Origin: Dromaius novaehollandiae
Lineage: Eukaryota; Chordata; Aves; Casuariiformes; Dromaiidae
Assembly (NCBI RefSeq): GCF_036370855.1
Contig: NC_088102.1
Span: 67,155,601 to 67,219,600 of the forward strand
Length of the DNA stretch: 64,000 bases
Direction: 5' to 3'
The first letter of the stretch is position 1, and each line of letters begins with the position of its first letter. Both the position numbers and the translations under genes were made by a program. The notes under the pieces are model-generated. The model saw only the letters and a list, made by a program, of their open reading frames with translations. It had not been told where the DNA came from and searched no databases. Shown one piece after another: positions 1 to 42,173 of this stretch.

Positions 1-760
1 GCACGGCTCCTGCCTGGCTCGTTTCCCGTCCCAGGGCCCCCGCGGGCAGTGGCCGAGTTGGGCGGCGGAGCTTCGTGGCGGTGCCTGGCCCAGCCCCTGC
101 CTTGCTGAGTTTCCACCGGCCCTTCTGTGCTTGGCCGAACTTACCGGGCGCCGAGGGCGAGATCAGCCTCTCGCCGGGGGTTTGTACAGCGCCCGGCGCG
201 CTGGGAGCCTTGCTGCCGGCTGGGATCGGCAGGTGCTGGTGAAATAGGGCCGGGGGCGACGCTGCAGCGGTGGCAGGGCGGCCGGCGGCATCCCGCGGTC
301 GTGCAGCCCCGAGGGCATCGTGGCACGAACCAGGGCCCCGCGTGGCGCGTGTCGCGTAACGAGGAGCAGGGAGGTTCGGTCGCGGCTGGGAAGGAACCTG
401 CTTAGTGGCCGGGACGGGTTGGGAAACGGCCTCCTCGGCGTGAGCCCGGCGCCCGCCAGCAGCACTTCTGGTTTCCCAGGGTCAAGCGAGAGGAAGCTGC
501 GGCGCGTTAGCTGGCTGGCGAAAACCACCCGCGTCTCCCTTCGGGAGCAGCTGCGACAGTGACGGGGCTCGGCGAGGTGGCCTGAAAGCCCCGTTTCCAG
601 CTGACGGCTGCTTTCGCATTGAGCAGACCGGTGCGAGAGCTGGGAGGGGGTCGTGCTTCCCCTCCGTTCCCGCGTCCGGGGCCCCCGTCGCCCTGCCTGG
701 TGCCTTGGCACGGACGGAGCCGGGGGGCAGAGGGCTGGGAGGCGGCAGCCCACCGGAGCC
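1..760. other. CpG-rich non-coding stretch at window edge
   Basis: The first ~760 bases are GC-rich with frequent CpG, like the flank of a CpG island. Open frames exist on both strands but none shows a recognisable domain or a clear exon. It may be the downstream side of a promoter or early DUSP8 exon lying just left of the window, which would fit the missing DUSP8 5' exons. That is inference; only the composition is seen. Confidence 0.35.
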
Positions 761-3440
761 GCCTCCGCTCTGGGGAAGCAATGGGAGATTTAGGGACACT
801 TGCGTGAGCCGGGCGCAGAGCGGCTGCCTGCTTTCCCCGCAGCGCCGTGCAGGGGTGCCTGGGAGCGGTGAGCAGCAGGCAAAGGAAGCCTGGGCCTGGA
901 ATGAGCCTCACGCAGACGCGTGGTGGGACACAGACCCGTCCTGGCCGTCAGCGTCCCCGTTGCTGAGCGTGCGTGAGCAAGGACACACTTGTGTGTGCAT
1001 GCACGCATCCTCCGCGCCGGGCGCTGCCGTTCCCATCCTCTGCGTCTGCTAGGTTCAGCCAAGACCCAAGACTCCCAGGCAGGACTATGTCTGTCTATAC
1101 TAGGTGCTAAGTGAAGTTTAAAACATCCTAATTAAAACCTGTTAACAGGTTTCTGAGCCGTTCCCTTCCTCCCTCCATTTCCCCTGTCGAAAAGAAGTCC
1201 TTAAAGCGCTGCTGCAGCCAGAGCAGGAGGGAGCGTGTTCCCAGAAGTGGCTGGTAATTGCCTCGCTGAGGTTTTGGCAGAGCCGCTCGTGCTCCTTTTG
1301 CTGCGGCGTCATGAGCCGCACACCCTGGAGCCTGCCGCTTCGCTAATGGGAAACACAGGCCACTAATGTGTGGAAAAAAGGAACTGAAATGTAGAACACT
1401 GGGTCATGGCTGCTGCGTTTTATATGGAAATCATGACTCAAAAATACTGCTGAAAACATTTAGAGGGAGGCTGGGCACACTTTCGAACACACAGAGTTTC
1501 CTCCTTCCTGTAATGTGGGCAGCAGCCAGCTTATTTTAGCCCCAGATTTGCAGCGCTTGGGAGGTCTGAGGGCGATATGCATGCTGGGCCTGATTCTGAC
1601 TCCTTGCCAGAGCAAATCGAGAGGTGCCCGCTGGCAGTGGGGCTGCCTGCCCCCTCGGGTGGCTGGTGCAGAAGACCACAGTGCTGGGGCTTGCCGGGCT
1701 GCGAAGGCTGCCAGCACCCCGCCAAGACTTTGGGTCAAGTGCTGCTCTCGCCTGCATCGATCCAAAGTCCCTTCGCTGGCTGCCCAGGACAGACTGAGGA
1801 GCTGCGTCAGTACGAGGAGATCAGGGAGCACGAGAAGCCCTTGGCTGTCGTGTTCCTGCTGTCTGCGCGGCGTCCTGCCCGGACTGACCCCGCGCCCCTG
1901 CCCGCTCTCCGGAGAGGCGTCCGGCTGCTCCTGGGCCGGGGAGCTGGTGGCCGCAGCGGGGGCTGAGCTCAGGTCTGTGTTCAGCTGCCCCTTTGCTGCG
2001 GAGATGGTGTGTGGCTTCAGAAGCATCATTTTCCCTCCTGCTCCCCCATTCCCTGCCTGGGAAATGGAGATAGCAGCCCTCCTCTTCGTCTGGATACGTC
2101 CCCGGCTTTGGGAGCCGAGGGGCAGCAGTGTGGGTCCGGCCAGCCCCGGCAGAGCAGCCTCCGCTGAGGCGACCAGAGCTCCTCCCAGGGCACTAACGGA
2201 GGGGGCTGCCTGCTTTTTGGGGAGGGAGGGAGGACAGTGTGCAGGAGGGTGACTTTCCAGGTTTGAGAGTGCAGCCGGCTCGGCAAGCCTGGCTGGGTGC
2301 AGTGTCTCAAGAGGGCACTGCAGGCACTCCAGCTCCGTCCCCGTGCTCGCAAGTGCTGCTCAGCAGAGGCAGAAGGGCACGAGCGAAGCCAGCGCAGGGG
2401 TTTAGCTGAGGAATTGCAAACTTCTTCCCCTGAGGTGAAGGAGCAGTTCCCCACCACCCTCCATCGCCTGTCGCCCTCCGAGGCAGCGGCCTCGCCGCTC
2501 ACCTTCGAGATACGGCAGCGAGGTGCATGGCCGAGGCTGCAGTGCGCGTGCGCTGCAACGCCGGGAAGCAGCCTGCAGACCTCAGCCAGGCTTTTCTTTC
2601 TGCTTTTCGCAGCCTCTGCTGCTCCTGGTCAAATGCAAGTAAGCTGTGTGTCGTACGTGCTGAAGAGCTGCTCTCTGTCCCTAGTATAGATGTAGCTAGA
2701 GGCCAGCGGCCCGGAGCCAAAGGAGAGGGCTCACCCCGCTGAGCTGGTTCCTTCTTTGCTTTGAGAGCATAAGTAAACCTCCTGGTACTAAAAAATCAAA
2801 TTTACCTGTTTGCTTCACTCCTTTTCTGCACACAGAGTGTTAGATACATTGCGAAGAGCCTACTAACACCCTTCCGCCACCCCACTGCAGCTGGGGGGGT
2901 CCCACCGTTAAAGGGGGCCGGGAACTCAGTCCCTAGGGTCCCCGGAGCGGTGCGTCTGCCCCAACCAGGGCCACGGCTCCCGCGTGGATGGCCGCTGCTG
3001 CTCAGTCAGGGTTTACACTGATTGCAGGGACACGCTTGCCCCACATCTGGGAGGTGCCCAGCTGCTCCAGGGGAATCTACGCTTCACCACAGGTGAATCT
3101 GTGGCCCCTCTCCCATCCTTCCCGAGCCGGTCTGTCATTACAAGGGAAACAGGCTGCTAAATTCATTGCACTGAGAGCCCTTTCCCATCCCCTCATGATG
3201 GAGATACAGTCCAAAAAAAAAAAAATCCAAAGAAGTCCCGAAACCTCCAGACCCGTTCTGTGGTCCCCAGCTCTCTTCAGCCTCACCGTAGGACTGGAAT
3301 TTCCTCCCAGGTGATGCTTGTGCAATGTGACGGCTATTGAAACTGCAGCAGCAGACGATGCATGGGGGAATTCCCCTCTCCCAGAAAGAGCTTCTGCTTT
3401 CCCCACGCAGTCTAGTAGCTGGAGCAGGGATGGGGAGATG
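760..3440. other. Non-coding DNA with enhancer-like patches
   Basis: No exon recognised. Two lower-GC patches stand out. One is near 1,080-1,160 and holds an 18-bp palindrome at 1,135-1,152. The other is near 1,340-1,470 and holds an AP-1 consensus TGACTCA at 1,434-1,440. The rest is GC-rich sequence with no feature I can support. Confidence 0.4.
1135..1152. promoter_or_regulatory. Perfect 18-bp palindrome, HNF1/E2-box-like
   Basis: AAACCTGTTAACAGGTTT reads the same on both strands. It contains GTTAAC (the core half-site type bound by HNF1 factors) flanked by ACCTG/CAGGT half-sites of the ZEB/SNAI type. Perfect symmetry is seen; binding is inference. Confidence 0.3.
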
Positions 3441-3545
3441 GGACAGGACCCAGGAGTCCTAGCCGGGTTGCTTTGGGCGAATCACTTCTCTTTTTCCATG
3501 CCTCGGTGTCCCCATCTTGTACAAATTTGGTGCCTGGCCATTTTT
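3441..3545 (+). repeat. MIR/CORE-SINE-like fragment
   Basis: The text order is the one expected of a MIR-family element: a CCAGGAGTCCTAGC segment, then TTTGGGCGAATCACTTCTC, then a degraded 'CCTCGGTGTCCCCATCT' stretch. Divergence is high, so it is old. Recognised from memory of the MIR core, without alignment. Confidence 0.6.
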
Positions 3546-6500
3546 GTTCATCTCCAGCCCACATCATTCTTCAAATGAGTCTGCTGCCTGGAAACAGCTG
3601 GTAGAGGCTGATGGGCAAAGACGGACGAGCTGAGGGTGGCAAGGCTGGTGGCAGGAGCCCAGCAAGGGTTAACATGCTACAAGCAACAATTCCAGCCGGG
3701 TTTGCAAGGAGGAATCTGAGTCAATTATTCCCAGTCTTGGAAATCATCATCTACTCCTCTTTTTCCTTTTTTTCTTTTAATTGTGTAAGTATAAATAGTG
3801 CTGCTTGCTGCCCTCCATCCGTGGGAGCAGAAAGCATGTTGATTTATATGGTTTTCCTGACATCACATGAAGTGGTGGAAAACTGAATGGAGCCAACATT
3901 TTTCCTGCATTACGTAATGCCCCCTCCCTCCCTCGCAGCCGAGCTTTGCTATTCCTGCAGGAGCCTGACTGTTCTTTAACCTTTGTTTATTTCAGCACAA
4001 ACCCTGGCTTTTTTTTTCAGTTTCTTTTTTTTTTTTCCTTCCCCCTTGCAAGCTCCCGCTTTGTTTTTATTAACAGCCATTATCTGTTTATGAAGCAGCA
4101 GCAGTCTGGCTCCATCGGCCCCTGATGGCTCCTGCATGCGAGCTCTCGTGTTGGAGACTGGCCAGAGCCGTAGTGTGGTGCTGAGCTGCTGGGTGCTGAG
4201 CTTCAGCAGCTCCTCTCCCTGCATTTGTTCAGCTGCAGAGGACTTCAGGGAGATCTGGCTTGGAATTTGCCACTCCAGTGGCTGGAAGTGGTAGCGGAGG
4301 GCTTAGGATGCTCCTCCAGATGATGTTCAGGCCCCATGCACAAGGGGAAACAGCCTTGGGGCACAGCAGACCCAGGCTCTTGAAGTTGTTCCAGGTGGGC
4401 CAGCACAGCAAAGGGGGGCTCGTGCTTCTCACAAGGGCTGGGGTTACTCTTAGGTGGGGGCCTGTGTGCTCCATGGGTCTCACGATCAGGCAGGTCCAGT
4501 CTGAGACCTGAGGCCCCATTTGGCCTGAGGTTGTAGCTGGCCACTGGCGTACACGTTGGTCCCAGTGCTTGGTGGGGCTGGACGAAGCTCCTGTCAACTG
4601 CAGCTTAAAGGTCAAGGAGAAAGCGGTGCTGGTACACAGTCTTGCTGGCTAGTGCCAGGGCTTTGGGGCAATGGTTGTCTCCCCAGCTCCCTTCCATTAT
4701 AGAGGGTTTGTGGAGGCATGCTGGAGTTGGGACCTTCCTTGCATGGCAGGAACTGCTTTCATTTTATTTTTGTGCACAAGGGGAGCTTTATCTTTGCAAT
4801 ATCGCACACTAACCTGAAACAGGCCCCTCGCTTGCTTTCTGAACTCAAGTCATGAGCTTTTCATCTGGCTCTTGTGTGTGTGAGATCATCTTCAGTCCCC
4901 CTTCGCCCTCCCCCCCCTCCATTTGTACCAATTCTTCAAGGAATGTTTAAATTTTCCAGTCCTGTTCTTTCTAAATTTGGAGCGTCTGTTTACTCCCAGG
5001 ATTCGGAAAGAATGTAACAATATCATCAGTGAGAAATCCCTCCCAGCCCTCCACTCTCCATCCTCCTCCCTCCAAGCTCCTCGGCAAGCAGACTGGCCTG
5101 CACAGACTTGGCTGGTGGCCCAGATCCCATACAGCCCGACAGCGCTGCAGCGGGCCTGCATGTTCTGGAAGAGCAACTGAGGTGTCGCTCATCTCTCCGT
5201 CCGTCGCTCTCCCGCTTCTTCTCCCCGCGCTCCTTTCTCGTGCGTGCACCCATAAGTACTCAGGGAGGTGCGAGCGTGGTGTGCTGGTGGCCTTGGAGAT
5301 GCAGCTCGTGCCCATTTGACAAGTCGGGTGGCAATGTTTGTGTTAGACCTCCGAAGGTCTTTCCACCTGGAGATAGCGTGTTGAGGAGGAGGTACCGGCC
5401 TTTCTAATGGGGGAAATAGAGCTTGTTGGCGCCCTATTTTTTGCCAAATGGATGTCAGCAAAATAGCGGAGTTGGGAGCATCAGTGGATGCAGTTGACTG
5501 GAAGCTTCATCTGCCTTTTGATGCGGTCCCTCATCCTCCTAAGGGAGCTGTGAAGCTGTGGGGTGAGCTCCTCTCCAAGGACCTCGCGTGCATCGGGAAA
5601 CTGCGGGAATGAAGGGCTCGTTTGCATCGGCATCATCAAGGCAGACAGGCGACAGCGGCCACCAAGTCGTAACGATGTGACTGGCGTGATCTGGGGGGGC
5701 TGATCTCATTAGCAAGTCCAACACAGTTATTTCGGAGATTCGAAACCGATCACCAGGGAACTGGGGAATTTTGGGGGAACCTACCAAAGCCAGATGGCTT
5801 AAGAGTGGATGAAATGAAGTAGTGAAAAACAAAAGGGAGTTTCCATTGAAAGAGTTGGTTTGAGCTGTCCAGACTGGTGATGAGGTCCCACATTAGGTGG
5901 AATTACTTTTGAGACAAGGACCCAGGGGCAGATCAGTTAAAAAAAAAGGAGTTTGGGTTTTGAGGTTTTTTTCCTGCTGTATAGGGACAGTCCTAAAAGG
6001 AGATCAAACATCAGGATGGCTGAACATGGCAGCACTTGTTAGGCTGGAAATCTAGTGGAGCTTTTGCATCTCATGTCTGTGAGAAGCCATTTGCTAGCAT
6101 GGTATCTCCCTTGCCGCCTGCTTCACTCAAAACATGTTGGCCTGAGGGACAGGGGACAGCACTGATCAAGGGGAGGGCTGATGTGAGAGAGGATTGGGGC
6201 GGCTTAGAATAAAAGAGAAGATGAATGCGAAACACCAAACTAGGCAGGTGCAAAAACAGCAGCTAGGACAGAGCGGGGAAGAGAGGGGTTGCTCTTTGTC
6301 GGAGTAATAGGAGCTGAAGACGCCTGGTGAATCTGAAAGGCAGGTAAAAATACAAATTAGTCTGCAAAGCTTGTCATGGCTGTCACTGAAGCTAATAGCT
6401 TAGCAGGATTGAAAATGGGGATTGAGGCATTCTTACAACCCTGATGGAAGAAAAAATAATCAAAAGCCTAAGAAAGAAAATACCCCAAACACCCACACTT

Positions 6501-9270
6501 CAGTCATCAGTCAGCGACTGTCTGTTGGGAGTGAGGAGGCAACTTCCCGCTTAGCCGGTTATTTCATAACCACCTTCCCGATAGCCTGTTGTGGACACCC
6601 AACAGTTTCACCTGAGGGCTTCAGGGCGTGACTACCTCTCCGGGGAACAGCCCCCCAGCTAGCCTGAAGTCTTCGCTGGTCTCCACGAGCATAGCAACTC
6701 CCGTGGATCCTCTGGGACCCACCGGTCCTTCTGCCCAGTCCCACCACCGCCCCGCACGCCGTGCTGACCCCAGGCAGCTGTCCTGGGCAAGTCGCTGCAG
6801 GGAGCTCCTCGAGGCCTCGGTCCCCGATGCACCGCTGCGCCCGAGGTGGCTGTGCTCTGCCAGGCAGCGCAGGTCGAGGTGTGGAGATCCCTGCTGAAGG
6901 GATTAGCTGGAGGAACGCTCTCGCGGTTCATTTGGCAGGGCCTGAGTAGCCCGTGGGACGTAGATGCTGGTTTTACCTCTCATCTGCTACTGGGGGAGCA
7001 GGTAGCACGTGTGCCCCATGGTGAAGGCCCTGGCGCGGCACCTCAGGTTGGGATGTTGCGGGTTCTCGAGAGCTGAGCGGGCGCAAGGCGTTGCCAGTGC
7101 ACAGCTAGAGATCTCCAGGTCCGTCCCAGGCGCGCTTCGTGGAGGGACGTCGTCTCGTCGCTTTGGGACAAGGGTGCTGGGGGAGCTACCCGAGCACGCG
7201 TGGTCAGCGAGGAGCTGCGGGCCGTTTCTCACAGAAATAAAGCAAAGGTTGGATTCTAGCTCAGCTGGCAAATGTTGCCTGCCTAAGGCTGGATATGGCT
7301 CCGTTAAATCAGGATTTTGGTACTTTCTCTGATTTCACCGCTTAGTATCCAGGCCTGAACGTGCGTGTTTATGCAGAGCGTTAAGGCTATTTCAGGTACT
7401 CGTAGACCGCCAGGTAATCGTGCATTCGTGGGGGGCCAGGGCAGCTGGCCTGAATCCAGCAGGTGCATCCACAAGTTCCTCTCCTAAAGCCTGGTTATTG
7501 CCCCTGGACCTCCGACAAGCAACTCTCCCCACCTGTGGCCGTGCCTGTCCCGAAGCGTGCAGTAATAAACCTAAAGACGCTGGTCTTCAGCTGGTATCAG
7601 TCAGCAGGCACTGCTGGCTCGAGGGTCGTGCTCCGAAATACGTGGGTGTGAGGAAGGAGCGGGCACGTGTGGGTGCCAGGGGGAGTTTGGATGGGAAAGG
7701 AAAGCGTGCGTGCACCCAAGCGACTTAGGATTTCAGTGCCTCGCTTCTCCAGCGCTGAGAGTTTCGAAGAACCGTCCCTGCAGGTGCCGGCGGCCGGCCC
7801 CGGCGCTCAGGGCAGCCGGTGGAGGCGAGGATGCTCGGCCACCGCCGCGTTGGGTTCGGCGGTCGCTGGAGCCGGCGGGGCAGGCTGGCACCCCGGCCTC
7901 CGCTTGGACTCGGCGATGCCGTTGGGCGTTTTGGCCCCGGCGGGACCCGCCGCTGCATCCCTGGGAGGGGTTAAGCCAGGTCACGTATGCGCGAGCTGGT
8001 TGTATTCCAGACCTATGCTCTAAAGCTCCCCATTTAGCAATGCTGTCGTCAGACAACTTGTTTTCCTGCTTCTATAATTACTCCGCGGTGCTTCCCCTCC
8101 CCCTCGGCCGCGATCTTACCAGTTGGACCAAGGGAAGGAGAGCGAAAGGGCCGAAGGCAGCGAGGGATGGAGAAAGAGGAAAAGAAGGGAAAGGGGTTAT
8201 GGAAGAAGAGACCGCTGCTTGCCAGGACTTACAAAACCCTTGTGTAATTTCTTTTTTCATTTCTGGAAAGCTGAAGGGAGGAAGGAAGCTTTCCCAGTAA
8301 GAAGTCCTGCTGGACAGGAACCTGTGCCCAGTTATGATTTCCTTGCTTTGGAGAAACCTGCCTCCCCTTTTCCTGAGGCCTCATCCTTGCGAAAGGTCTG
8401 GGGTTGGGATTATTATAGGGACCTTGCGCTGGGTGGGGAAGGGAAATGCCGGCCGGCACCCGGCTGGCCTCGCGCCAGGCTATAGGTGCAGTCGCTGATG
8501 GGGCTGTAAGGGCTGAGCAGGGCTCGCGCCGCTCTTCGGCAGACCGTCCCCTTCCATTTTGGAGCAGAGCAGGTCTAATGCAAACGATACGTAGGAGGGA
8601 CCGGCCCCTGGGCTGAGAAATAGCCTTCCTTCCCTCTGCGTGCCTCCCCCTAGCCCAGCACCAGCTCCAGATCTCTCTGCTGGTCATGGCGAAGGGGTGA
8701 AGACGACGGGAGGTGCGTAGGCAGGCCGGAGCCGGGGAGGAGGCTCGTGTCTGGGGAGAGGTGGGCTGCAGGTGGCATCTCCACGTGGGAGGCCCTTGCG
8801 CTGGTGAAGGGACCTGCACTCGCCTGTCCTTCAGCGCGGATGGGGGGGAGGCCGGGCGCGGGCCCACGCAGGGCTGTCCGAGGTGTCGCGCCCAGCTCCC
8901 GGCTGCCCCACGCCGCCCAGCCCCAGCTGCCCTGAGCAGAAAACTAGGTCCGAAGGCATCCTGGAGGGACCTGCCAGCACGAAAATAGCTCGTGCCTGGG
9001 GCTCTCGCAAGCCGGAGTGAGTCAGTCCCCGGCAGCAACCAAGGCAAATGCATGCTCCTGGGTTGCTGCGTCGGGGGCAGGCTGAGGACGGCGCTTAGGG
9101 TTTCGCCAAGCGCTCCCTGCATCGTTGTCCCTCTCAGCTGGGCAAGAGCTGCTGGGCAGGACGGAGCCCACACGGGCCACCAAGCCAGGCAGCAGCACCC
9201 TGGTCCAGCTAGGGCAGCCGCTTCCCTGCGGGGCTCACGGAGGAGACACTGCTCCTCTTTTTCCCCCCAT
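3546..9270. other. Non-coding DNA, mostly featureless, with one enhancer-like patch
   Basis: No exon recognised. A patch at about 3,690-3,960 is A/T-richer and holds TGACATCA (3,858-3,865) and a perfect 14-bp bZIP palindrome (3,907-3,920). The segment around 4,230-4,620 and 5,850-6,250 is GC-moderate but poor in CpG, as expected for old methylated repeats, but I cannot name a family. The remainder holds nothing I can support. Confidence 0.4.
3907..3920. promoter_or_regulatory. PAR-bZIP / NFIL3-type palindrome
   Basis: GCATTACGTAATGC is a perfect 14-bp palindrome containing ATTACGTAAT. This matches the RTTACGTAAY consensus for NFIL3 (E4BP4), DBP, HLF and TEF, and a strong C/EBP-type site. It lies in a lower-GC patch that also has an ATF/CRE-like TGACATCA 42 bp upstream. 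The motif match is seen; function is inference. Confidence 0.45.
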
Positions 9271-9279
9271 CTCGTTCAA

Positions 9280-9545
9280 GCACGCTTTGAATTTTAGCCA
9301 ACCTCTGACCCACATCTGATAATCATCAAGCCATATTCGTTACAACAACAGGGCTCGTTAGCAGGCTGGCTCCGCGCGGGGCGGGGAGGGTGGGGGCGAG
9401 GGCGGGGAGAGCGCGCATTTAATGCCGATGACCTCATCTCATGTGATGTCATTCAAAGGAAAAACACTGAAGTCACTCACATATGGCTCAGCCTTGGGTT
9501 TTTCAGCCCATAAAGCTTCTGGTTTTCAAAGACACAATACATGCC
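9280..9545. promoter_or_regulatory. Candidate enhancer with paired CRE-like sites
   Basis: A lower-GC patch carries TGACCTCA (9,429-9,436) and TGATGTCA (9,444-9,451). Each is one base from the CRE/ATF consensus TGACGTCA, and they are 15 bp apart start to start. A GATA-like CTGATAATC near 9,317 and an E-box CATATG at about 9,480 are also present. It ends in a C-run near 9,546. Regulatory function is inferred from motif density and composition only. Confidence 0.3.
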
Positions 9546-10700
9546 CCCCCCCCCACTATAATCCTGAATGGCTTGCTGGAGGCCTGGTGCCGAGCAGCGA
9601 GCTGGTGCCGAGCTGCGTGGGGACGTATCGGGGAGCAGCAGGGGTGGGCGGGAGGGGGGATAAATGCAAGGAGACCGTGCAGCAGCCCCCAGCTGCGTCA
9701 GAAATCGCGGCTCATGGATTGAGCCCCCGTGGGACTGGGAAAGACCATTCATAAGCGTCGCTTCTCGCTGTGCTTTTGCACCGGCGGAGACCGCGGCAGC
9801 GCGTGCATCTCCTGCAGGCGACGGTCTTGCTCTTCGGGGACCGGAGCGAATAACCCTGGCCCACACGGCTGCGTGCCAGCTGGGCGTGTGGCTCGGCCTT
9901 CTGCGTAGACGCGAGCAGCCCATCGCCAGAGCCCCTCACCCCCGGCTGCTGGGGCCCTTTCGCCTCTAGCTGTGCGAATCCCCTCCAGGCTGAGTGTCCT
10001 CGGGGGTGCCTGGCTCGTGGTCGCTGCGTTGGCCTTGGTGGAGAGGCACCAAGGACCGGAGAGTAAAGACGAGCCGGTGGTGAGAGAGCTTGCCCACCCC
10101 GGGCAGCCAGGTTCAGAGGTCTGCTCTGCAGCAGCCTCCTGCTGCACCCGGGAGAAGCTGTTTAGTCTGGTCTGCCTCAGTTTCCCCGCCGTGACGTGGT
10201 GATCGTGGCATTTCCCTTCCTCGCGCTGGCGTTCGGAGCTGAACGACGCGGCTCGGGGTGCCCGTTGGTCACGCCGGGGCAGGACGAGGGGCGCCAGCCC
10301 CACCACCGGCTGCAGCGGGGCTGCCGAGAGGGGCAGCCGCCTCCTTGGCACGCGATTTTGATCACACACCGTTTCCCAGTAAATCCCCCCCCCCAAAAAA
10401 CGGGGTAGCCGTAAAGCAGGGCAGCCCTTTGGGAAGCGGTCTCCTCCCTACGAGGCAAAACTCCTGCTCACTGCTGATGCCCGAGGCGGCGGGGGGAAAC
10501 GGGCTCGTTAAATCCAAGCGGTTTCCACGTCTCCCTTCACCCAGGAGGAAGGACTGCTCCGAGCTGGAGTAAAGCCCTGTTCTCCAGCCGCGCAGCGATA
10601 GGCACCATGGTGATGGGCACCTGCAAACCGCATCAGCTGCACAGCTCAGGGCTTCCTCGCTTCTGTCCCCGAATTAACTCCCCCGGGCCAAATCCAGCCT
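9546..10700. other. GC-rich non-coding stretch
   Basis: Open frames on both strands reflect GC content. A short MIR-core-like piece, TCTGCCTCAGTTTCCCCGCC, lies at 10,171-10,190. Nothing else is recognised. Confidence 0.35.
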
Positions 10701-11850
10701 GGTGCTGAGGTCCGTTTCGTGCAGAAGCTGCGGCTTTGGGGCAGCGCAGCTGCATCGTGTCCAGGCGGCACGATCGCGCGGGGCTTTGGTGGCCGAGGGT
10801 GGGCGGAAAGGAGCTGTTGCGCCTTTAAGCGCTGCGCGAGCGGCGTAGCCCCCGAGTCGAGTCGAGCCGAGCCGAGCCCAGCGGAGCGGCGCTGCGTGTC
10901 TGTGCGCTGAGTAAGGAATGCGGTTGCATGCCTGACCCGTTAGCTATGAGCGCGCCGCGGCGGCTCGGCCGCGCTCACGCTCCCGGGCTGAGCTCATCCC
11001 GGCTGGCCCCGGAGCCGCACACGCACGGAGCCGCGGCGCGGGAGGCGGGCGGGCGGCCGCGCTGGCAGCGGGGCTCCCGGTAGCCCCCCCGGCCCCTCCG
11101 GCTTGGGTTTTTTCCCCTTCGCCCCGAAGGCTGGAGCTGGGGGGAGGCTCTCCGTGCCTTGGCTCCGGCTGCTTTTTTTGGAGAAGCGGCTGTTTTTGCC
11201 GCTTTCTCGCCCGCCGGCTGCCGTGTCGCTAGGGCGAGGGGTGCCTGCGCGAGCCGCAGCCCGGATGCCTCTGGACGTGATGATTGCTCCCTCCGAGGAC
11301 CAGTTCTGGACGGACGTGCACGAGAGGCAGCTGAAGCTGAAAATCAGGGTGCGGAGGATGAAGGAGAGCAGGGACATGCGAGGTTTGTCAGCCTTTCCTT
11401 CCGGCGGGCACGGAGGGGGACCAGGGGGCTGGCGCGGCGGCGGCGGCGGTGCAAAGGGAGCAGGCAGCCGGCCAGCGCCGAGACGGAGGAGCTCGGAGAG
11501 CGGTTCGGAGGGGGGGACATGAGGAATTTCCAAGCAGAGATTTGCAGCCTGGTCCTGCAGGGACCTGCGGGGAAATTAAGGTGCAAGAAGGGGGCAGTTT
11601 CTCGACCCAGGTGAGGGGCTGCCTGCGGCGGGCAGGGGCGGCCGTGGCGATGCCGGCATCCGGCATCCGACTCGAAGCCGGAGCGGAGGAGAGTGCGGGA
11701 AGGAGGGAGGTGGCGGGCTGCCTCCGCGCGGATGCAACGCTCCCGTCTCAGCAATGACTGCTTTTAGAAAGGGGTTTCGCCCTGTTGCCCCCCATAGTGC
11801 CGAGGTGAAGGGCAAGCGGAGGAAGGAGACATGAGCCAAAGCAGCTTAAA
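10700..11850 (+). promoter_or_regulatory. CpG island, putative internal DUSP8 promoter
   Basis: About 1.1 kb of very GC-rich, CpG-dense sequence surrounds a short in-frame coding segment at 11,265-11,382. It includes GTCGA/GCCGA pentamer runs near 10,858-10,880 and many GC boxes. No TATA box is evident, so a dispersed start between roughly 10,800 and 11,250 is likely. That it drives a DUSP8 transcript is inferred from position upstream of the DUSP8 exons and from the splice phase of the enclosed segment. Confidence 0.5.
11265..11382 (+). CDS. DUSP8: Putative alternative first coding exon of DUSP8
   Basis: An ATG at 11,265 (with a second in-frame ATG at 11,280 in a better context, G at -3) opens 39 codons starting MPLDVMIAPSEDQFW and ending in a basic stretch KLKIRVRRMKESRDMR. 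The composition is protein-like, unlike the Ala/Arg/Gly/Pro-rich frames around it. A GT follows at 11,383 (CGAG|GTTTGT, a modest donor). The exon would end with one base, G, of a split codon. The DUSP8 exon at 17,234 starts with GA, so joining gives GGA (Gly) and runs straight into GGFATFSSCF. The predicted product is about 568 residues with no docking motif and no complete rhodanese domain. I do not recognise this N-terminus from a known family. It could instead be a first exon of another transcript. Conservation or RNA evidence is needed to be sure. Confidence 0.45.
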
Positions 11851-14559
11851 AATATGCCGAGCCCGGCATGACCTAGATTGCCGAACGGTTGGATCAAGAA
11901 ACTTCCCCTCCGCCACCACTTAAAATGGGAGCCTGCTAAAAGTGCTTGACAGGTTTTTGTGGCATGAACCACATAACCCAGTGATGGTGTCATTACTAAT
12001 AAGTCACTCATGGAAATGACACATTTTTCTTTACTTAGAACAAGCGAGGCTGGTCCAAAGCAGGCAGAGTCACCGGAGGAAAATCAGGACCAGCAGCTCT
12101 GGGAGTGTGTGTGTATTTGTGTGGGTGGAGGGCTTCCTTTCGGGGTTTTTCTTCCTTTTTTTAAGGAAGCGGTGGGAGACGGCGGGACGTGGGGGCCTGG
12201 GAGCAGCCCGCGAGGCCGGCGAGGGGCGGCGCAGGTTGGGAGGTGGCAGGGGGATTCGGCAGCAGATGGGCCCAAGCTGTTTGGGATGGAGGAGCTGACA
12301 GTTGGGGAAACGGGGGATTTACATGAATCCGTAATAGGGCTGATTCATCTGCTTGCTCATACCAACTGCTTGGAAAAAAGGACCCCGCGATGGCGTGATG
12401 AAATGCGGTGCCAAATGGAGGGAGGGCGAAAGCCGGACCGGAGGGTGGGGGGGAATACGAGGGCTGAGCAAGAGCTTTCGTGCCGATTTCGGCCAGAGGT
12501 TTGGCGGGGGGGCAGGTCCCCTAGCTCCATAGGCTGGTGGAGAAAGCAAAGGAGGCGAGCGCGGGGCGGCCGCGGAGGGAGCAGCAGCAAGGATGCTGGC
12601 GGTGGAAAAACTCAAACTTCCCAGGCAGCAGGAAGCTCTGACGAACCCGCGAAACTTCCCAAAGCGCGATGAGTAAGGGTGACAGTAAGCGGCGTTTCAT
12701 CACGCCGCCCGGCTTCGCTGCCGGCGCGGCCAGCACGAGAAGCAGGGATTTTGCAAAGAGGGGTTTTCCCGGAGGCTCCGGGAACGACGTGCGAAGCGGC
12801 CGGCCCCTCGGCTTTCCTCCCTTCCCTTTAACCCACTGCAGAGACGCTGGGGCTCGCTGGGCTGAGCCGCTCCTGCCGCGTGCCGGGCGTCGCGGGGCCG
12901 GGGCGAGCAGCAGCCGGGGGCGACGCCGGCCGAGGACGCGGGCGCGAAAGCAGCATCCCCGGGCTTGCAGAGCTGGTACCCGGCAGGTGGGACCCCAGGC
13001 CGCGGCGAAAGCTGGACCTGCGACGCCGGGCTCCCGGCAGCACCGGCAGCTGCTGCTTAACCTCGTTACGGGGGCAACGAGGGCGGGCTGTAATCCAGCG
13101 CTTTGCAGACCCCGTGGGTCCCCTGCTTGCTCCGAGGCTGCGAGCTGGGGGTGAGGAGGTGGCAGCTGGCCCAGGGAGGGTTTGCAGCTCGCTTTGCTCT
13201 GCCTGTTTCCCTCCTCCTCGCGGCTGCAGGCTGACGGCCCGCTGGGGTGAAATGTCGCCTTTTCTTCCCCGTTTCGTGCTGGGGGGCTTTGGGTCGGATG
13301 CGCTGCGCTGCGTGCGTGCGAGGCTGGCGAAGAGGCCGCGTTTCTGCAGCTCAGGTGGCTTCAGGTTTGCAGCACTTGTTCTCCAGGAGGTCTCTAAGAG
13401 ATGTGTGGGGCTGGGGACGTTCCTGGCACTGGGGACAGACCCATGGCTCTCCTGTGGGGCAGTTTCAGGGGCAAGGCTCTGCCCGTGTGACCGTGCAGCT
13501 CTCGCCCCGGTAGGGCTTTCTTGCAGTCTGTGGGGAGCTGGATCAAGGCCATGGAAACACCAGGCCAGAAAGCTTTCGAGCCAGGTTGCCCCCGCCGCTC
13601 CCTGTCTCCGTTTCATGCTTCCAGCCTACAAGGATGGCATGGACATAGGGCAGGAAGCTGGAACCTTCTCCCACTTATAGTGGCAGGGACCTGGGGTAGC
13701 CTTGGCTTGCTGCACATCTCCCTTTGATTCCCCCAGAGGAATCAAATCCTCAAGGGCTTGCACATCTCCGCGGCTGGGGTTTGCCACCGGGAGAGCAGTG
13801 CCACGCCGCATCCCTGCCCCGGCTCTGGGGACAGCGGCTAGGCTAGGTCTGCCTTAATGGTCCAGCCCTTCCCGTGGCCGATGTACCGCCGCGTGCCCGC
13901 AGCAAGCCTGGACAGATCTGCTGACTTCTGCGGGCCTCTCGCGGGGCGGTTTGTCCCCGCTGGTGACGGCAGCGGTGGTACGGCAGGGTCTCGTTCGGAG
14001 CCGCGTGTGGCATCTCCCCCGGGCTCGTAGCTGGGCTTGCGGGGGGGGGGTGGCTCGGTGCCCTCTCCCTGCAGCCCTCCACCCCCCTGGTGACCTTGCT
14101 TTCGCTGGGGGTGGTCAGAGATGTTTGGTCAGAAAATGTGCGGTATCGAGTCACTGCACAAGCCTGTGCCTCAGTTTCCCCCTTTCCTCCGAGGGCATCC
14201 CGGCCCTCTGTCCCCTCCCAAAGCTGCTCTCTGTCTGGCCCGGCCTGGAGCCCCTTGGCTGGACGCCACCGAGGATTTTAATTTCTCCTGGAGAACTGCC
14301 GAATGACCCCCCACACACAAAATCGGGGGCTGGTTTTCCTTCCCCAGCACGGCCGGGGGCCTGGCCCTGGGAGGGGCTGCCTCCTGGCTCTGCCTTCCTC
14401 CAGCTGCCGCAGAGCAGCAGAGGTGTCCCCTCTTCTGGCGGGGGGCCCTGCATTTGCACACCCCCCCTCCTCCTGGGCCCCACCTCTGCCTGACACAGGT
14501 AACTGTAGAAGGCAGGAAAACATTGGATTTTGCAGGGAATGTTTTTGGAAGCCCTCAGG
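11851..14559. other. Non-coding DNA between two CpG islands
   Basis: Probably intron of DUSP8. A lower-GC patch at 11,870-12,060 includes TGTGG (11,958-11,962) facing AACCACA (11,967-11,973), a convergent pair of RUNX-type sites. A MIR-like piece with GCCTGTGCCTCAGTTTCCCC lies at about 14,162-14,181. Long open frames around 12,670-13,680 are open on both strands and are not considered genes. Confidence 0.4.
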
Positions 14560-15070
14560 AATGCCGGTGCCGTGGCCGGGTGCAGCGTGGGGGACCGGCT
14601 CTGCAGCCCTCGCCGGGCTCCGGGGAGCGTCGGGGAGAAACGGGAGAGCTCGAACCGCCCACCGCCTGTGCAACGCGCATCCTTCCCGAGCAATTCCCGA
14701 CGTGCCGGGCGGGAGAGACCCCGCGCTGCCCCGTGGCCTCGGCCCTTTGGGCTCGGCGCTTCTCCCGCTCCGAGCCCGGGGTACGGAGGGGAAAGCCCCG
14801 GCGCCGCTGGAGCCCCGCCAGGGACATTCCCTGCCTTCGGGATCACTCGGAAGAGCTGCCCGGCTTCCTAAAAACGCCTGGCACGCTGGAGCGGCGGGCC
14901 CGGGTGGGGTTCGCCCCGCTCCGGCGCCGGGCCCCATCGCTCGGGTTTCCCTCGGAGCGGCCGGCGCTCGCCCGGGCGAGGCGAGGACGGTGCCGGGGCC
15001 GGGGCCGCGCGAGGGAGCGGGGCGGCGGGGAGGCCCGCACGTGTGCGCGCCGCGCTCGGCCCGCTGATTT
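14560..15070. promoter_or_regulatory. CpG island, unassigned
   Basis: Roughly 500 bases with very high C+G and CpG, including runs of GGGGCCGGGGCC type, end abruptly at the A/T-richer stretch after 15,070. A CRE-like TGATGTCA follows at 15,181-15,188. No coding exon or clear start is recognised, so it could be an internal promoter, an enhancer island or exon 1 of an unknown transcript. Confidence 0.4.
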
Positions 15071-17233
15071 ATGCCGCTTGGCAATGCCGACGCCGTCCAG
15101 GGAGCAGCCGTAACCAGAGCTGCCGTGCACCTGTGCTGGGCCTCCTTCTTTCGCTCTGATTTAATGTCCCAGTTGAGAGGTGATGTCATGTCGGAAGGAG
15201 CCAGGGAAGAGGAAGTGCTGGGGAAGATAAGGTGCCTTAACTCTTCCCTGCCCAGCTTGGCAAGGTTTTGGGGCTGAGACTTGCGCTAACTGCCAGCCAG
15301 CCAGGAAGACATGAGAGCGGAGGAAAGAGAGGTTGGTTGGAGGTTGCTTTCCTCTTTGAACAGAGGGCTGGACACCAGGACACGGTGGCTTGCAGGCGGC
15401 GAGGAGGTGGAGGACCAGGTGCCTGGAGAGGAAGGGCTGAGACCCTGCCCAGTTCAGAGGGAAACCAGGAATGTGCCCAGACCTGACCTGCTTCTTGAGC
15501 GGGGAGAGGCTGGGTGGGAATGTCCTAAGCAAAGGCCTGTTGAAATGTGTCATTCGGCTGCAGAGATGGGCCGGGGATTGCCACGTTAGAGACTAGGACT
15601 TTGAGCGTGAGCTTCTGGAGGCATCCAGGTCCCGTGGAGAGTCAGCCCCCAAAGTCTGCTCAGCCCTGTGCGTCATGTCCAGCTCTATCTAGTCGTTTGT
15701 ACTATCTAGGAAACCCCTGGGAGGGCTGGCTGGGCTGACACAGCCTAAGGTCCTCGCTGTTGCCCCAAGCTGTCCCCCAGATGCCCTCTGCTCGAGGGGA
15801 GTGAGCTTGTGCCACCGCTTGCCTGGCTCTAGCCCGGGGAGCAGGATGGCTGGGGGAGAGGGGCCATCGTGGGTCCCCACCGCTTATCGTGAACCGTTTC
15901 GCGATCCCTTCTCCGAACGCTATATTCGGCGACGTCGTGCCCCAGCACGCAGGGAGGGAGGCCGGAGGCTCAAGCTCCCGTTTCGGGCTCCGCCACTATT
16001 CTTAGGCAGGTCCCTTCGGTTCCCTAAGCCACAAGGCACGAGGCTGCAGAATGAGATAAGCAGCGCGCTTATGTAACCGCCCAGGACGTGCGGCCGTCCT
16101 TTAAGGTTTTACAGCTCCCGGAGCTGCCTGGCAGGCGAGCGTGGCAACGTCCGCTGCCCTGCTGCAGTGCTGCTGCTGTTCGAGGGGGGGCTGCTTTGCG
16201 GGCCGGTGCGTTTGCATTTCGGCCGTATTTCTGACGGTGCCAGACAGCACTGGTAGCTTCGGTCGTCATGTTCTACCTGCCGCTGCCGCAACCGGGGTTT
16301 TTCTCTCAATATTGGACTTTGAGATGGATGTGACTGCAGACCAGCTTGGCACGGTAAACTGGGCACGGCTTGCTGTCACGTTCGGTAACGTCTGGCCGTG
16401 AAAAAAAATTGCTAGGAAATCTGTTCAAAAGAAATTAAATTGCATCCCCTCTGGCAAAACCTCCGCTACGTCCCTCTCTCCGTTTTTGCAGACTCACTTC
16501 TCTAATTAGCGCCGCGCTCGCAGCCGCGTGAAGCAGGCAGGCGCTCGGCTGCGGGAGGACGGGAAGCCTGCGCCTGGCGCCACGGGCAGATCGCACGGCT
16601 GTGACAGCTCTCCGGCCCGCGCGCGAAGGCTGCCGGCAGCGATGCCGCGATTTCCTCAGAAATCACAAGCTCGGCAGGGCCGGGCAGAAGTCCAGCCCCG
16701 GGGAGACGGGGCTGGTGCCTGCTGCGAGTCGCGAGCGGACCCCCGTGCCCGACCCTGCCTGCCGTGACCCTGGGGAGCGTCGTGCTGCTGGAGCGCGTTG
16801 GTGTCGCTGGCCCTTCACGTCATCCCGCCGGGCGGTTTTTGCTAACAAATCGTGAACGTGACGGTCTTCAGAGTAATAGGTGGCCAAAAGAAGGACTTTT
16901 CCTGCCTGCCACTACGAGCAGAGCTATCCGAATGGAGGTGCAAACAGCGAGGGGGGTGCAAGGTGTCACCTGGCTCACGTATACGTTGATATCCAGTGTG
17001 GCAGGAAAACAAGAGCTGGCTCTGTCCTGTCCTGTACGTGTGCTGCGGTCATCACAACACATTGGGGTCGATTAACGATGGTTGTTGGCTTTTTGCTCCT
17101 CAAAACTCCGTCCTTAGTGGTGTTACCACAGCTTCATCCACAGCCCTCGGAGTGCCGGGTCCTGGCTGTGCCGCAAGGAGGGACAGTCTCAGCCTCGGTG
17201 CTTGCACCCTCAGCGTCCCTCTTTCTTTTGCAG
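15071..17233. other. DUSP8 intron, no feature recognised
   Basis: The stretch ends with a strong polypyrimidine tract and CAG acceptor at 17,231-17,233. The DUSP8 exon that normally precedes this one (end of the rhodanese domain, containing a DQST-type segment) was looked for and not found here. Confidence 0.5.
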
Positions 17234-17400
17234 GAGGCTTCGCCACCTTCTCGTCCTGCTTCCCAGGGCTCTGCGAGGGGAAGCCGGCCGCCATCCTGCC
17301 GATGAGCATCTCCCAGCCGTGCTTGCCCGTGGCCAATGTCGGCCCCACGCGCATCCTGCCGCATCTCTACCTGGGCTCCCAGAAAGACGTCTTAAACAAG
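17234..17400 (+). CDS. DUSP8: DUSP8 exon: rhodanese end and start of phosphatase domain
   Basis: DUSP8 (MKP family, also called hVH5) dephosphorylates phospho-Thr and phospho-Tyr in the activation loops of MAP kinases, chiefly JNK and p38. This exon encodes GGFATFSSCFPGLCEGK, the last part of the rhodanese/CH2 domain. It continues into TRILPHLYLGSQKDVLNK, the start of the dual-specificity phosphatase domain. The match to human DUSP8 is near-identical. The acceptor is TTTTGCAG|GA at 17,231-17,233 and the donor AAG|GTACGG at 17,401. It enters in phase 1 (two bases complete a Gly codon) and leaves in phase 0. The upstream part of the protein, about 123 residues in human, is not in the window in recognisable form, so the intron before it is either more than 17 kb long or an alternative first exon at 11,265 is used. 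Confidence 0.95.
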
Positions 17401-19568
17401 GTACGGCCCTGCCGGGGTGGGGAGCACGTCCGCCTTGCGCCCTGTCCTGGCTGGGAGAGGGCTGCACTGTGACTCCTTTAGCCACGCGAAGGGCAGAGGG
17501 TGGTGGTGCCTCCTCTCCTCTCCGGCGAGGACCATGTGGAGTTGGACCTTACCAGGAGGCTTAAGACGCAGAGCACATGGGCAGAGCCCAGAAAAATGGT
17601 GGTGCTGAGCTTCGGTGTGGTCCTGAGGGCTTGAAAGCCCTTGGGAGCCGGACGGAGGGGGAGAAAGCCGGGGCATCCCACGACGGGAGCGCAGAGGTAG
17701 GCGGCTATGGCCAGCAGCAGAGCACTTTTTCAGGAGGCCTGAAAACGGGCAAAGATTTGCTGTGGGGAGAGAGGAGGAAAAAGGGGCCGTGTCCTTTAAA
17801 GGTGCTGGAACGGCTGCGCGGTGATGTCAGACCAGGGAAGGAATTTTGTTTAAAGGAAAAATAAAGGCGAGAAGAAAGAAACAGGAATCGCAGTTAAAAT
17901 GCCGATGGGCGCCTGCCGCGGGCAGGAGGGAGCCAGTCCGGCGTCCTCGCCTGGGGAAGGCGAGGGGGGAGAGGGCCAGGGGACAAGCGTCCGACCGGCA
18001 GTGGGGGTGGAGGCAGAAAGGAGGGAAAGAGAAATTATATACAGGGAGTAAAAGGAAATGAAAGAGAAAAATGCCAGGAATGTGAGCCTGGGAGCTGGGC
18101 CGGCTCCGAGGAGCCGAGGCCGGGCTGCAGCGGAGCCGCCGGGGACAGGCTTTCGTGCAAGCGGGGACCGGCGGCCCGCGGACGTGGGGCTGAAATCCCA
18201 TTGCGGTCTCCAGCGGAGTCCGTGTCCGGCAGTCAAATTGATGGTTTCTTCCCTCCTCTCCTCCTCCGAGGTTTTCACTCATCTTTTGGGGACTCATTTT
18301 CTGCCATCTCTGCGGTGCAGTGGCTCGGCAACAGCTCTGCCCATAGGTTCCAGAGCCGGGGCGAGCGTAGAGGTCGCACACGGGCGAGCGCAGTGACGTT
18401 TCTCCTCCCCGGCGCTTTGCTAGGCGAGATCCCATGTGGCAGCTCCACGGGTTGGCTGTTTTGTCCCCATGTTTCCTTTTTCCTTCTGGGTCTTCCAGGC
18501 CAGGCACTGAGACCTAGCAGTTGGCACAGATGTTCCCCCTTGTCTTGTACCTAATCTGCCCTTGAGTTATACAGATTATACATAATCTGACTGGAGGGGA
18601 AAGGGACAGGGGTCAGATTAACCATGAACTTGAGTCAGCCCTGCAGGTGGGTGAAGCTCGTTTTAGCCCTGGGGAGGAAGGCATGGAGCTTGGCGTGGAT
18701 GCAGCGATGCCCACCCAGCAAGCCCGTGTCCCGAGGGATGGCTCATACGTTGCATCTCGCTCCCTCACTGCAATTTTTCTTCGGATCCTCCTTGCTAAAG
18801 TTCTCCCTTGCGCCATCATGTTTCACTGAGTCAGAAATATGGGCAATGATGGTGGCGGCTCAGTGGATGAAGCAGAAAAGTCACAGAAAGCAGTTCACTC
18901 CTGGGTCAGAATGAGGGAAGAGATCATTCCTCTTGCAGCCTATAGATATCCCAGCCAAAAAAGTGCATGTTCTGAGTTATCAGTCGCTAATACCCAAAAT
19001 GAGCAGGAGGTAGCTTACGTGAGCCTCTTGCAGGCTGAACTCAGCCTGCAACTGTTCATTGGAGACTTTTGAACAACTGACAAATCTGTGAGAACTGATA
19101 AGTTTCTGTGAGGTTTGGGAGCAAAGAAATGGGTTGAATTTGGTGGATGCATGGTCCTGCTGATAACTCTCCCAACTCTGTCGGTGAAATGCTCCCTCTG
19201 TCCTTCAGGTCATGCTTTCTAAGCTTTCATCCAGACTTTTTGCTGGTCTTTTTCTTTTATTTTACCATTGTCCCTCCAATACTGGGGTTGTTTTTTCTCC
19301 TTCTGGGACCTCCTTCCAAGAGTCTTTAGTCTACCCAAAGAGGGACAAAAGTAAAGAATCTGCTGAGTTTCAAACCTGTGTCATCCGAATGGGCTTGTCT
19401 TCCCCCGCCCGTCTCTGCTGCACTGTGGTCAGCTAGGCCAAAGCAGCAGTGGGAGAGCCGGAGGAGGCAACACTCGCATGGGCAACAGCAGAGCGTGCGG
19501 AAAGGCAGACCTGCAGCACTCTGCTCTCTGAACTCAGCTCATCGTTTGATCTCTTTTTTTCTCACCAG
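17401..19568 (+). other. DUSP8 intron (2.2 kb)
   Basis: Bounded by GT at 17,401 and AG at 19,567-19,568. Contains a GC-rich patch at 18,080-18,190, a CRE-like TGATGTCA at 17,822-17,829 and an inverted repeat CAGATTAT-AC-ATAATCTG at 18,572-18,589. No exon seen. Confidence 0.8.
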
Positions 19569-19728
19569 GACCTGATGACACAGAATGGGATAAGCTATGT
19601 CCTCAATGCCAGCAACTCCTGTCCCAAGCCGGACTTCATCTGTGATAGCCACTTCATGCGCATTCCTGTCAATGACAACTACTGTGAGAAGCTGCTTCCC
19701 TGGCTGGACAAGTCCATTGAGTTCATTG
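19569..19728 (+). CDS. DUSP8: DUSP8 exon: phosphatase domain, middle part
   Basis: Encodes DLMTQNGISYVLNASNSCPK through NDNYCEKLLPWLDKSIEFI. The NDNYCEKL segment carries the aspartate expected to act as general acid in this family. The acceptor is CTCACCAG|GAC and the donor ATTG|GTGAGA at 19,729. Phase is 0 in and 1 out, joining to AC at 19,937 to make Asp as in the human protein. Differences from human are conservative (for example CDSHFMRIPV here). Confidence 0.96.
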
Positions 19729-19936: not shown

Positions 19937-20060
19937 ACAAGGCCAAGGTGTCCAGCTGCCAGGTGATTGTGCACTGCTTGGCAGGGATCTCCCGATCGGC
20001 CACCATCGCCATCGCCTACATCATGAAGACCATGGGTATGTCGTCAGATGATGCCTACAG
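19937..20060 (+). CDS. DUSP8: DUSP8 exon: catalytic signature
   Basis: Encodes DKAKVSSCQVIVHCLAGISR and on to MSSDDAYR. The HC-X5-R phosphatase signature is HCLAGISR. The nucleophilic Cys codon is at 19,975-19,977 and the phosphate-binding Arg codon at 19,993-19,995, so the enzyme is predicted active. The acceptor is CTCCAG at 19,931-19,936 and the donor ACAG|GTGAGT at 20,061. Phase is 1 in and 2 out. The intron before it is only 208 bases and the one after it 404 bases. Confidence 0.97.
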
Positions 20061-20464: not shown

Positions 20465-21602
20465 GTTTGTTAAAGACCGGCGCCCATCTATCTCACCCAA
20501 CTTCAACTTCCTGGGCCAGCTCCTGGAGTATGAGAGGAGCCTGAAGCTCCTCAAGGCTTTGAAAGCCCAGGGCGATCGGAGTGAGGGGGATGCGCAGCAG
20601 GACCCGGCTGAGGTGCCCGAGAGCAGCAGGCACTCCACACCACCTACCTCAGAGAAGGCCGAGGAGACATCGAAAAGCACAAGCTCAGCGCCCTCCCACA
20701 GTGACCCCGAGAGACAGGCGGGAGCTCCTAAAATCCTGTCGCCCACAGCACTGCAGCAAGGACTCAACGGCTTGCACCTGTCCTCAGAGCGCATTCAAGA
20801 CACCAACCGGTTGAAACGCTCCTTCTCCCTGGACATCAAGTCGGCCTACTCCCCGGGCCTGAGGCAGGACGTCCCGGGCCCCGCCGACACGGGGGAAGCC
20901 CCGAAGCTCTGCAAGCTGGACAGCCCGTCCGGACCCAACGGCGTGTGCCAGTTCTCCCCGGTGCCGGACAGTCCGGACTGGCCGAGCGGGCCGGACCTCC
21001 TCCTGGAGGCCAAGGTGAGGCAAAGGCGGAAGCACAGGCACCAGGCAGGCTCCCCCGCCCACGGGCTCAGCCTCAACTTCAACGGGGTGTGCGCCGCGCA
21101 CAAGGGCACCGGCGCGGAGGACAGTCTCAAGCAGACGCTGCGGCTCAGCCTGCCCGGCGTGGGGCAGCAGCCCGTGCAGCCGGCGACCACGCCGACCGGC
21201 ACCGGCGTCGGCCCGTGGGGGGTCCACCTGGAGTCCCCGAGCACCCCCTCCTCGGAGGGCGCCTGGTACTTTGGCACAGACTCGGCCGTGAGCGGCGGCG
21301 GCGGCGGCGGCGGTGGCGGCGGGGGGGCCCTGTTTGCCGGCGCCGCCTCCTACCCCTCGTTCGGCTGCGGCGCGGTGCCGGGCGGCTGCGAGATCAGACT
21401 GAGAGACAAGCAGCGGGCCGAGCCGCGGGACGGGCGTCACAGCTGGCACGAGGACGCCAGCGCCGAGAAGCAGTTCAAGAGGAGGAGCTGCCAGATGGAG
21501 TTCGAGGAGACCATGTCAGAGGGCAGGTCCCGGGAAGACCTGGGCAAAATAGGCAAACAGTCTAGCTTTTCGGGCAGCATGGAAATCATCGAGGTGTCCT
21601 GA
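20465..21602 (+). CDS. DUSP8: DUSP8 last coding exon: domain end and disordered tail
   Basis: It starts at GCAG|G (20,461-20,464), completes an Arg codon, and encodes FVKDRRPSISPNFNFLGQLL, the last helices of the phosphatase domain. A low-complexity tail of about 330 residues follows and the stop is TGA at 21,600-21,602. Conserved islands in the tail are LQQGLNGLHLSSERIQDTNR, LKRSFSLDIKSAYSPG, EAPKLCKLDSPSG, QFKRRSCQMEFEE and the extreme C-terminus SFSGSMEIIEVS, all diagnostic of DUSP8. The middle differs from mammals and includes an 11-Gly run encoded by mostly GGC codons at 21,294-21,326. The four exons together encode 529 residues from the split Gly codon. With a human-like N-terminus the full protein would be about 650 residues, close to human (625). 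The tail may control stability and localisation; that is family knowledge, not seen here. Confidence 0.97.
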
Positions 21603-28199: not shown

Positions 28200-29210
28200 G
28201 TGCATAGAGAAACCATATGCCAGGGCCCTGGGGGCACCAACAGGCCTTGATTGCCCCGAGTGGCCTCACCTGGGACCTCACCTGCACCTTCCACCCCAGG
28301 GCCAGAAGCTCCATTTAAGCTCAGGCTGGGCCCCATCTCCTGTCCTGTCTCCTGGATGGACCTTGGAGCTGTGTTACAGCTGTGTCCCCTGATGCTGTGA
28401 TGGGACCTCTGGCTGGACCTGGCTCCTCACTTGGTATGTTTGGGACTGCCATGACCCCTGTGTCCAGCTCCTGCTCCATGCTGTGGGAGGATGTCCTGCT
28501 GGTGAGGGTGCTGCGTTGCTGGGGTCTCCTTCAGGCCCCTCGTGGGGCTGTCCTGGTCCAGCAGCTCCTTGAGACCCTTCAGAGGGGGCTCCTGTTCTCG
28601 GCTGCTGTGCAGAATATCCTGGGCTGGGGACACATGAATGGCATGGAGGCACCTGAGCTCATCCCCCTGCTCCAGCATTTCCCAGGAGATGACTGTGAGG
28701 GGACTCTGGCCTGGGGGGACCCTGCTCTGGGACACCAGGCTGAAAGTGTATGGTGTTATGAGTGTGCTCCTGGGCCCTGCCACCTGCCTGGCCCTGCATT
28801 TGGCTCAACTTGCTTGCATAGAGCATCCTAGGAGGGAGTCCCCCATGCCAGGGGGTCTAATGGGATGGATGCGGGCTGTTTTATGCTGCTTAGACTCAAT
28901 GCTAGAGATTGGTCTTGGGCATATTTAACTCACCTGTATAGGTGTAACTCAAGAGTCATGTTGGCTGTGCACTGACGCAAGAGCCTGGGCTGAAAGAATG
29001 AGCCTCGTCTCTCCAAGGCAGAAAGCACTGATGGAAAGAGGTAAGGGTCACTCTCCTACTGCAGGCACTGCCCTGTGCCCTAAGCCTAACAGAAATAGGA
29101 CTTTGTTTACCTTGGGCTGTGACGGTGTTACTGCAGCTCCATGCCAGCAAAGGAAAAAACCCATCACTCCCTGGAAAGCCACACTTGTTCCTGGAGCAAT
29201 CCAAGACATT
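28200..29210. repeat. CpG-depleted GC-rich block, probable old mobile element
   Basis: The stretch is GC-rich yet has very few CpG, while DNA on both sides is CpG-dense. That is the mark of an inserted, methylated and decayed element. A CATTTAAG box at about 28,313 followed by CTGGATGGACCTTGGAGCTG-type text suggests an LTR-like layout, but I cannot name a family and see no terminal repeats or coding remains. Confidence 0.3.
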
Positions 29211-41539: not shown

Positions 41540-41678
41540 TCTGTTGCGGTGCCGGGGAGGAGCAGCGGCAGGGCAGCGCTACGCCGTGGTGCCGCGTGCC
41601 GGGCCGCACGCGCGGGGCGGCCCCAACAGCCGCGCCGACCGTTAACGGCCGCGGGGGCGTGCCGCGCGCCGCCGCCGC

Positions 41679-42124: not shown

Positions 42125-42173
42125 GCCGGGACGCGGCGGCCGCGGGAGCCTCGCCGCGCGGCGGGACCCAGCC

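Follow-up and report, generated by a model that had tools for sequence, protein, structure and literature searches.

A candidate alternative first coding exon for a short DUSP8 in an intron of Dromaius novaehollandiae

Does the CpG-rich DNA that precedes the DUSP8 phosphatase exons hold a first exon of its own? A sequence-only reading of the stretch analysed here (64,000 nucleotides, hereafter the window, to which all positions refer) had proposed that a protein-like segment at 11,265–11,382 is an alternative first exon, giving a DUSP8 that lacks its N-terminal docking and rhodanese region. We conclude that a short DUSP8 isoform very likely takes this segment as its first coding exon and is expressed from a second, CpG-rich promoter in the DUSP8 intron preceding 17,234. 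The conclusion is supported by a coding signature, the phase of the donor, the best in-frame acceptor, the CpG-rich setting and a published chicken isoform.

We located DUSP8 exons by tblastn, using a human DUSP8 sequence as the query, and then placed the splice sites. The matches cover DUSP8 from about residue 124 to its end. The exons, together with the candidate exon and its setting, are as follows:

9,351–11,950, no strand assigned: CpG-rich region around the segment, from a composition scan
10,800–11,264, + strand: putative promoter and 5′ untranslated part, placed by inference
11,265–11,382, + strand: candidate first coding exon, 39 codons from an ATG plus one base (phase 1), from translation
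17,234–17,400, + strand: DUSP8 exon common to both forms (GFATFSSCFPGLCE...SQKDVLNK), with a phase-1 acceptor; putative splice partner
19,569–19,728, + strand: DUSP8 exon encoding part of the phosphatase domain
19,937–20,060, + strand: DUSP8 exon with the active site HCLAGISR
20,465–21,602, + strand: last DUSP8 coding exon, to the stop codon

In the last of these exons, GCG-type triplets are repeated over 21,292–21,322, where the product has a stretch of 11 glycines. Human probes for the canonical N-terminal exons gave no convincing tblastn match in the window at permissive settings, which places the segment inside the DUSP8 intron preceding the exon at 17,234; the canonical exons themselves probably lie upstream of the window.

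Translation of 11,265–11,382 gives MPLDVMIAPSEDQFWTDVHERQLKLKIRVRRMKESRDMR with one base over, a 39-residue peptide that begins MPLDVMIAPSEDQFW. The donor, GAG/GTTTGT at 11,380–11,388, has T at both +3 and +4 and ranks 50th of 549 GT sites in a simple matrix applied to 10–22 kb, which agrees with its earlier description as only moderate. The context of the start at 11,265 is poor (C at −3 and C at +4), and three ATGs lie 5′ of it, at 10,918, 10,928 and 10,946. These may lower translation from 11,265 if transcription begins before them, for example near 10,850; if it begins after about 10,950, the ATG at 11,265 is the first. The frame itself has an upstream in-frame stop that ends at 10,991 and, if the segment is left unspliced, would reach a stop at 11,520.

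CpG-rich stretches were called in 500-bp windows with a GC content of at least 0.60 and an observed/expected CpG ratio of at least 0.75. Fifteen stretches of the window pass these limits, 9,351–11,950 being one, so the CpG-rich setting alone is not specific. The putative promoter region (10,800–11,264) contains no TATA-box match. Scanning 10,000–12,000 with known motif patterns returned, as raw counts only, three E-boxes (CAGCTG) and a single SP1-like site, and no match for MEF2, CArG, TATA, NRF1, CRE, AP1 or YY1. The 39 residues have no Pfam family and no PDB relative up to an E value of 10. A degenerate DNA pattern for 11 of the residues had no exact match in viral_contigs or genome_contigs either, but neither collection is expected to contain vertebrate DNA, so this negative carries no weight. 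Rfam (at the gathering threshold) and tRNA scans of the whole window found nothing.

The codon composition of the segment resembles that of a coding exon. Its GC content at codon positions 1, 2 and 3 is 0.54, 0.33 and 0.87, which corresponds to a contrast between the third and the first two positions (GC3−GC12) of 0.44; the four DUSP8 exons in the window, taken as positive controls, have values of 0.27–0.39 over whole exons. Among other open 39-codon windows that start in 1–42,000, a contrast of at least 0.44 was found in 4 of 30,503, a count for which the DUSP8 region and any window that overlaps the segment were set aside on the + strand. All four are antisense images, three of the segment and one of DUSP8 exon 7, and such images carry the signature as a matter of geometry. 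With nothing omitted, ten windows reach this level: four on the segment, two in DUSP8 exon 7 and four antisense images. We also simulated 200,000 sequences from a first-order Markov model of the flanks, and none of the 87,639 frames that were open attained a contrast of 0.44.

A composition-corrected codon score separates the strands, with +7.7 bits for the sense frame of the segment and reverse frames that score −6.0 or −6.4 or are closed. The codon-usage score alone is weaker: of the 14,583 other open windows with a start in 1–17,233, 44 equal or exceed the segment, as do 195 of 31,392 over the wider range of 1–42,000. A codon score with a window-wide background, in which 231 of 32,625 open windows starting in 1–42,000 scored at least as high as the segment (the segment and DUSP8 exons included), was replaced by the composition-corrected tests because AT-rich stretches dominated it. 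Translation and codon contrast thus confirm the proposal of a protein-like, 39-codon segment in CpG-rich DNA with a phase-1 GT donor, and the segment is very probably a real coding exon. The same proposal had put the odds of a coincidental phase agreement at one in three, a figure that is much too high once the coding evidence is counted.

Joining 11,382 to 17,234 gives ..DMR-G-GFATFSSCFPGLCE.. across the junction, and no stop interrupts the DUSP8 exons before the one that ends at 21,602; the phase fit that had been pointed out is correct. The 17,234 acceptor is a strong one, third among the 914 AG sites in 10–22 kb. On the donor side, 1–17,233 contains 136 frames that run from an ATG to a GT over 30 codons or more and end in phase 1; 14 of them have an equal or better donor, two of which share the donor of the segment, and the segment has the top score per codon of those 14. 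On the acceptor side, we scanned 11,383–17,500 for phase-1-compatible exons of at least 25 codons with a contrast of at least 0.30, leaving acceptor strength unfiltered. The best of the five candidates is the DUSP8 exon at 17,234 (contrast 0.43), and the top three are this exon or its variants with acceptors at 17,237 and 17,267. The remaining two start at 17,460 (0.31) and 15,469 (0.30, at the threshold), the latter being the sole candidate inside the intron. In 21,603–42,000, the scan returned four candidates with contrasts of 0.32–0.36.

The joined exons encode 568 residues. Pfam places a DSPc domain at residues 84–214 (E = 2.4 × 10^−45, above the cut-off), and the three other families found up to an E value of 1 are other phosphatases, below their cut-offs; rhodanese is not among these four families. 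As a control, a 308-residue N-terminal part of human DUSP8 returned Rhodanese at E = 1.9 × 10^−9. The predicted protein is therefore a phosphatase domain without a full rhodanese/CH2 domain, as had been foreseen from the sequence. Its closest solved relative is human DUSP8 itself (4JMK, E = 6.2 × 10^−92, over product residues 76–222), the best of 24 PDB sequences matched at E values up to 1e-20. With a DUSP8-type catalytic domain and the active site HCLAGISR, the product belongs with DUSP8; typical MAP kinase phosphatases (MKPs) are defined by an N-terminal rhodanese/CH2 domain with a kinase interaction motif (KIM), and the short form falls outside that definition.

We take GFATFSSCFPGLCE, at the start of the 17,234 exon, to be the tail of the rhodanese domain, which means that this domain is cut short with some of its end residues kept. 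The kinase interaction motif is absent from the short product. In human DUSP8, the rhodanese domain comprises residues 23–138 and the motif residues 53–62, according to PMC6712826. Structure prediction for the 39 residues alone, with no alignment, gives one helix at residues 11–37 (mean pLDDT 86.5), a hint only because single-sequence helices are easily over-predicted. On this model, the new N-terminus is probably a charged helix.

It had further been suggested that the basic-hydrophobic end of the segment, KIRVRRMKE, loosely resembles the kinase-docking core that it would replace, a likeness that by the patterns used here does not exceed chance. Residues R21–V29 fit two docking patterns, as do 1651 of 5000 (33%) and 2493 of 5000 (50%) shuffled peptides, respectively; the segment does not fit a reverse docking pattern, which 161 of 5000 shuffles do. 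These patterns are a poor test because a canonical KIM stretch, included as a control, fitted none of the three. They therefore speak neither for nor against a docking-like replacement in the new N-terminus.

Alternative promoters combined with N-terminal truncation are an ordinary type of event. DUSP4, another MAP kinase phosphatase, has an isoform 2 whose N-terminal part is exchanged through an alternative first exon at the corresponding boundary, though the gene and the N-terminal peptide are different. Like the atypical dual-specificity phosphatases, short DUSP8 has a catalytic domain without a docking domain (rhodanese/KIM); unlike them, it would result from the choice of promoter in a typical MKP gene and would keep the long DUSP8 C-terminal tail. 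DUSP8 was absent among the matches listed in a literature search for comparable MKP isoforms.

A short, rhodanese-less DUSP8 is not new, as it is annotated and experimentally supported in chicken, according to PMC12536144. That study concerns chicken DUSP8 intron 3 at the lead single-nucleotide polymorphism (SNP) for inosine and IMP content, a region that bears DNase, H3K4me3 and H3K27ac signals in chicken muscle and is an active promoter in a chromatin-state map (PMC12536144). An Ensembl/FAANG track differs, showing an accessible region beside an enhancer, a disagreement that the authors note (PMC12536144). The annotated short isoform, XM_004941446.5/XP_004941503.2, is without the rhodanese domain and was the form raised most strongly by CRISPR activation in DF-1 cells, a fibroblast line, with the dCas9-VPR activator (PMC12536144). 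In muscle it surpasses the long form according to the authors, who use the term atypical dual-specificity phosphatase for it; one sentence counts XM_004941446.5 as a long isoform, which looks like an error (PMC12536144).

This chicken isoform X2 (XM_004941446.5/XP_004941503.2; promoter region GW1, intron 3) and the form predicted here would share their promoter placement in intron 3 and, as far as the chicken form is described in PMC12536144, likewise keep the canonical DUSP8 frame and the phosphatase domain and have no rhodanese domain. The comparison is one of architecture only, and we infer that the 39-residue N-terminus matches and that the published chicken short transcript has this segment as its first coding exon. 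The paper gives the 'exons' specific to the short isoform in the plural, which allows for a further upstream exon or another first coding exon (PMC12536144). Taken together, the sequence evidence and the chicken promoter and short isoform uphold the original suggestion of an alternative first exon of DUSP8.

Downstream of DUSP8 and on the same strand, positions 42,174–42,190 are the likely first coding exon of MOB2 (MDWLMG..., 17 bases, ATGGACTGGCTCATGGG followed by GTGAGT), a name that we assume from the human sequence. This exon lies within a CpG-rich stretch at 41,151–43,100, and just 3′ of it (42,339–42,637) is a GC-rich tandem repeat with a unit of about 49 bases and 5.8 copies. After the CpG-rich stretch, the GC content falls abruptly from about 0.74 (42,001–43,000) to 0.33–0.41, where it stays from 43,001 to the end of the window at 64,000. 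The order DUSP8 then MOB2 agrees with a gene list for chicken chromosome 5 (PMC10525433). Between the two genes, 28,559–28,675 holds the top composition-corrected codon scores outside the DUSP8 exons for open 39-codon windows (15.0 on the − strand and 12.0 on the + strand).

The published short isoform could use another first coding exon at this locus, in which case the segment would be an unspliced upstream frame or an unused exon-like stretch. PMC12536144 prints no N-terminal sequence in its main sections, and the donor of the segment is only moderate; moreover, phase-1 ATG-to-GT frames at 5,448, 2,527, 15,071 and, nested in the segment, 11,280 have positive codon scores, and three of the four have better donors. 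The codon score of the segment is nevertheless the highest of the 14 candidates, and within 1–17,233 the contrast is shown only by the segment and its antisense image, so that we regard another first exon as improbable. A further alternative is that the segment is a chance open frame in GC-rich DNA. Open frames are indeed abundant here, with 55 stop-to-stop frames of at least 30 codons overlapping 10,000–12,500 on the two strands together, and the codon-usage score, which those 44 other windows also reach, is unexceptional. By contrast, no simulated open frame matched the segment, and the independent windows starting in 1–42,000 with a contrast of 0.44 are confined to DUSP8 exon 7 and antisense images, which makes chance the least probable of the explanations considered.

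The segment might instead be a genuine first exon that never joins DUSP8, belonging to some other + strand transcript, such as a non-coding RNA or a MOB2 message with an additional upstream exon. What is likely the first exon of MOB2 does lie downstream on the same strand, and long intergenic splicing is conceivable. That exon ends in phase 2, however, with 17 bases before GTGAGT, and a phase-1 donor would therefore be out of frame with MOB2 exon 2; the acceptor-exon candidates in 21,603–42,000 are also weaker (0.32–0.36) than the DUSP8 exon at 17,234 (0.43). We judge this alternative to be very improbable, more so than the use of another DUSP8 first exon.

We therefore favour a short DUSP8 message whose coding sequence opens with the segment, with the following course of events. 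Transcription would begin somewhere upstream of 11,265, in the intron before 17,234 (which would be intron 3 in chicken numbering), and translation would begin at the ATG at 11,265. Splicing would then link the 11,382 donor to the DUSP8 exon at 17,234, the rest of the message being ordinary DUSP8. The product would retain the catalytic domain and the C-terminal tail, with most of the rhodanese/CH2 domain, the kinase interaction motif included, swapped for a charged, probably helical 39-residue N-terminus. Most likely, this DUSP8 phosphatase would no longer be bound to MAPKs by the usual docking, and its choice of targets would presumably be altered or less strict, in muscle for example.

More speculatively, and in our view doubtfully, the intronic exon may be old and conserved in sauropsids, with a helical N-terminus that steers the phosphatase to other partners in muscle. 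The lead SNP from genome-wide association for inosine and IMP content in chicken breast meat falls within the promoter region (PMC12536144; PMC10525433), and the window supplies a concrete candidate for the exon and for its N-terminal peptide. If the exon is indeed conserved in this way, one gene would give rise to both a docked and an undocked MAPK phosphatase by promoter choice. Loss of the docking domain through such a choice could let an MKP dephosphorylate different targets or make it a competitor of the full form.
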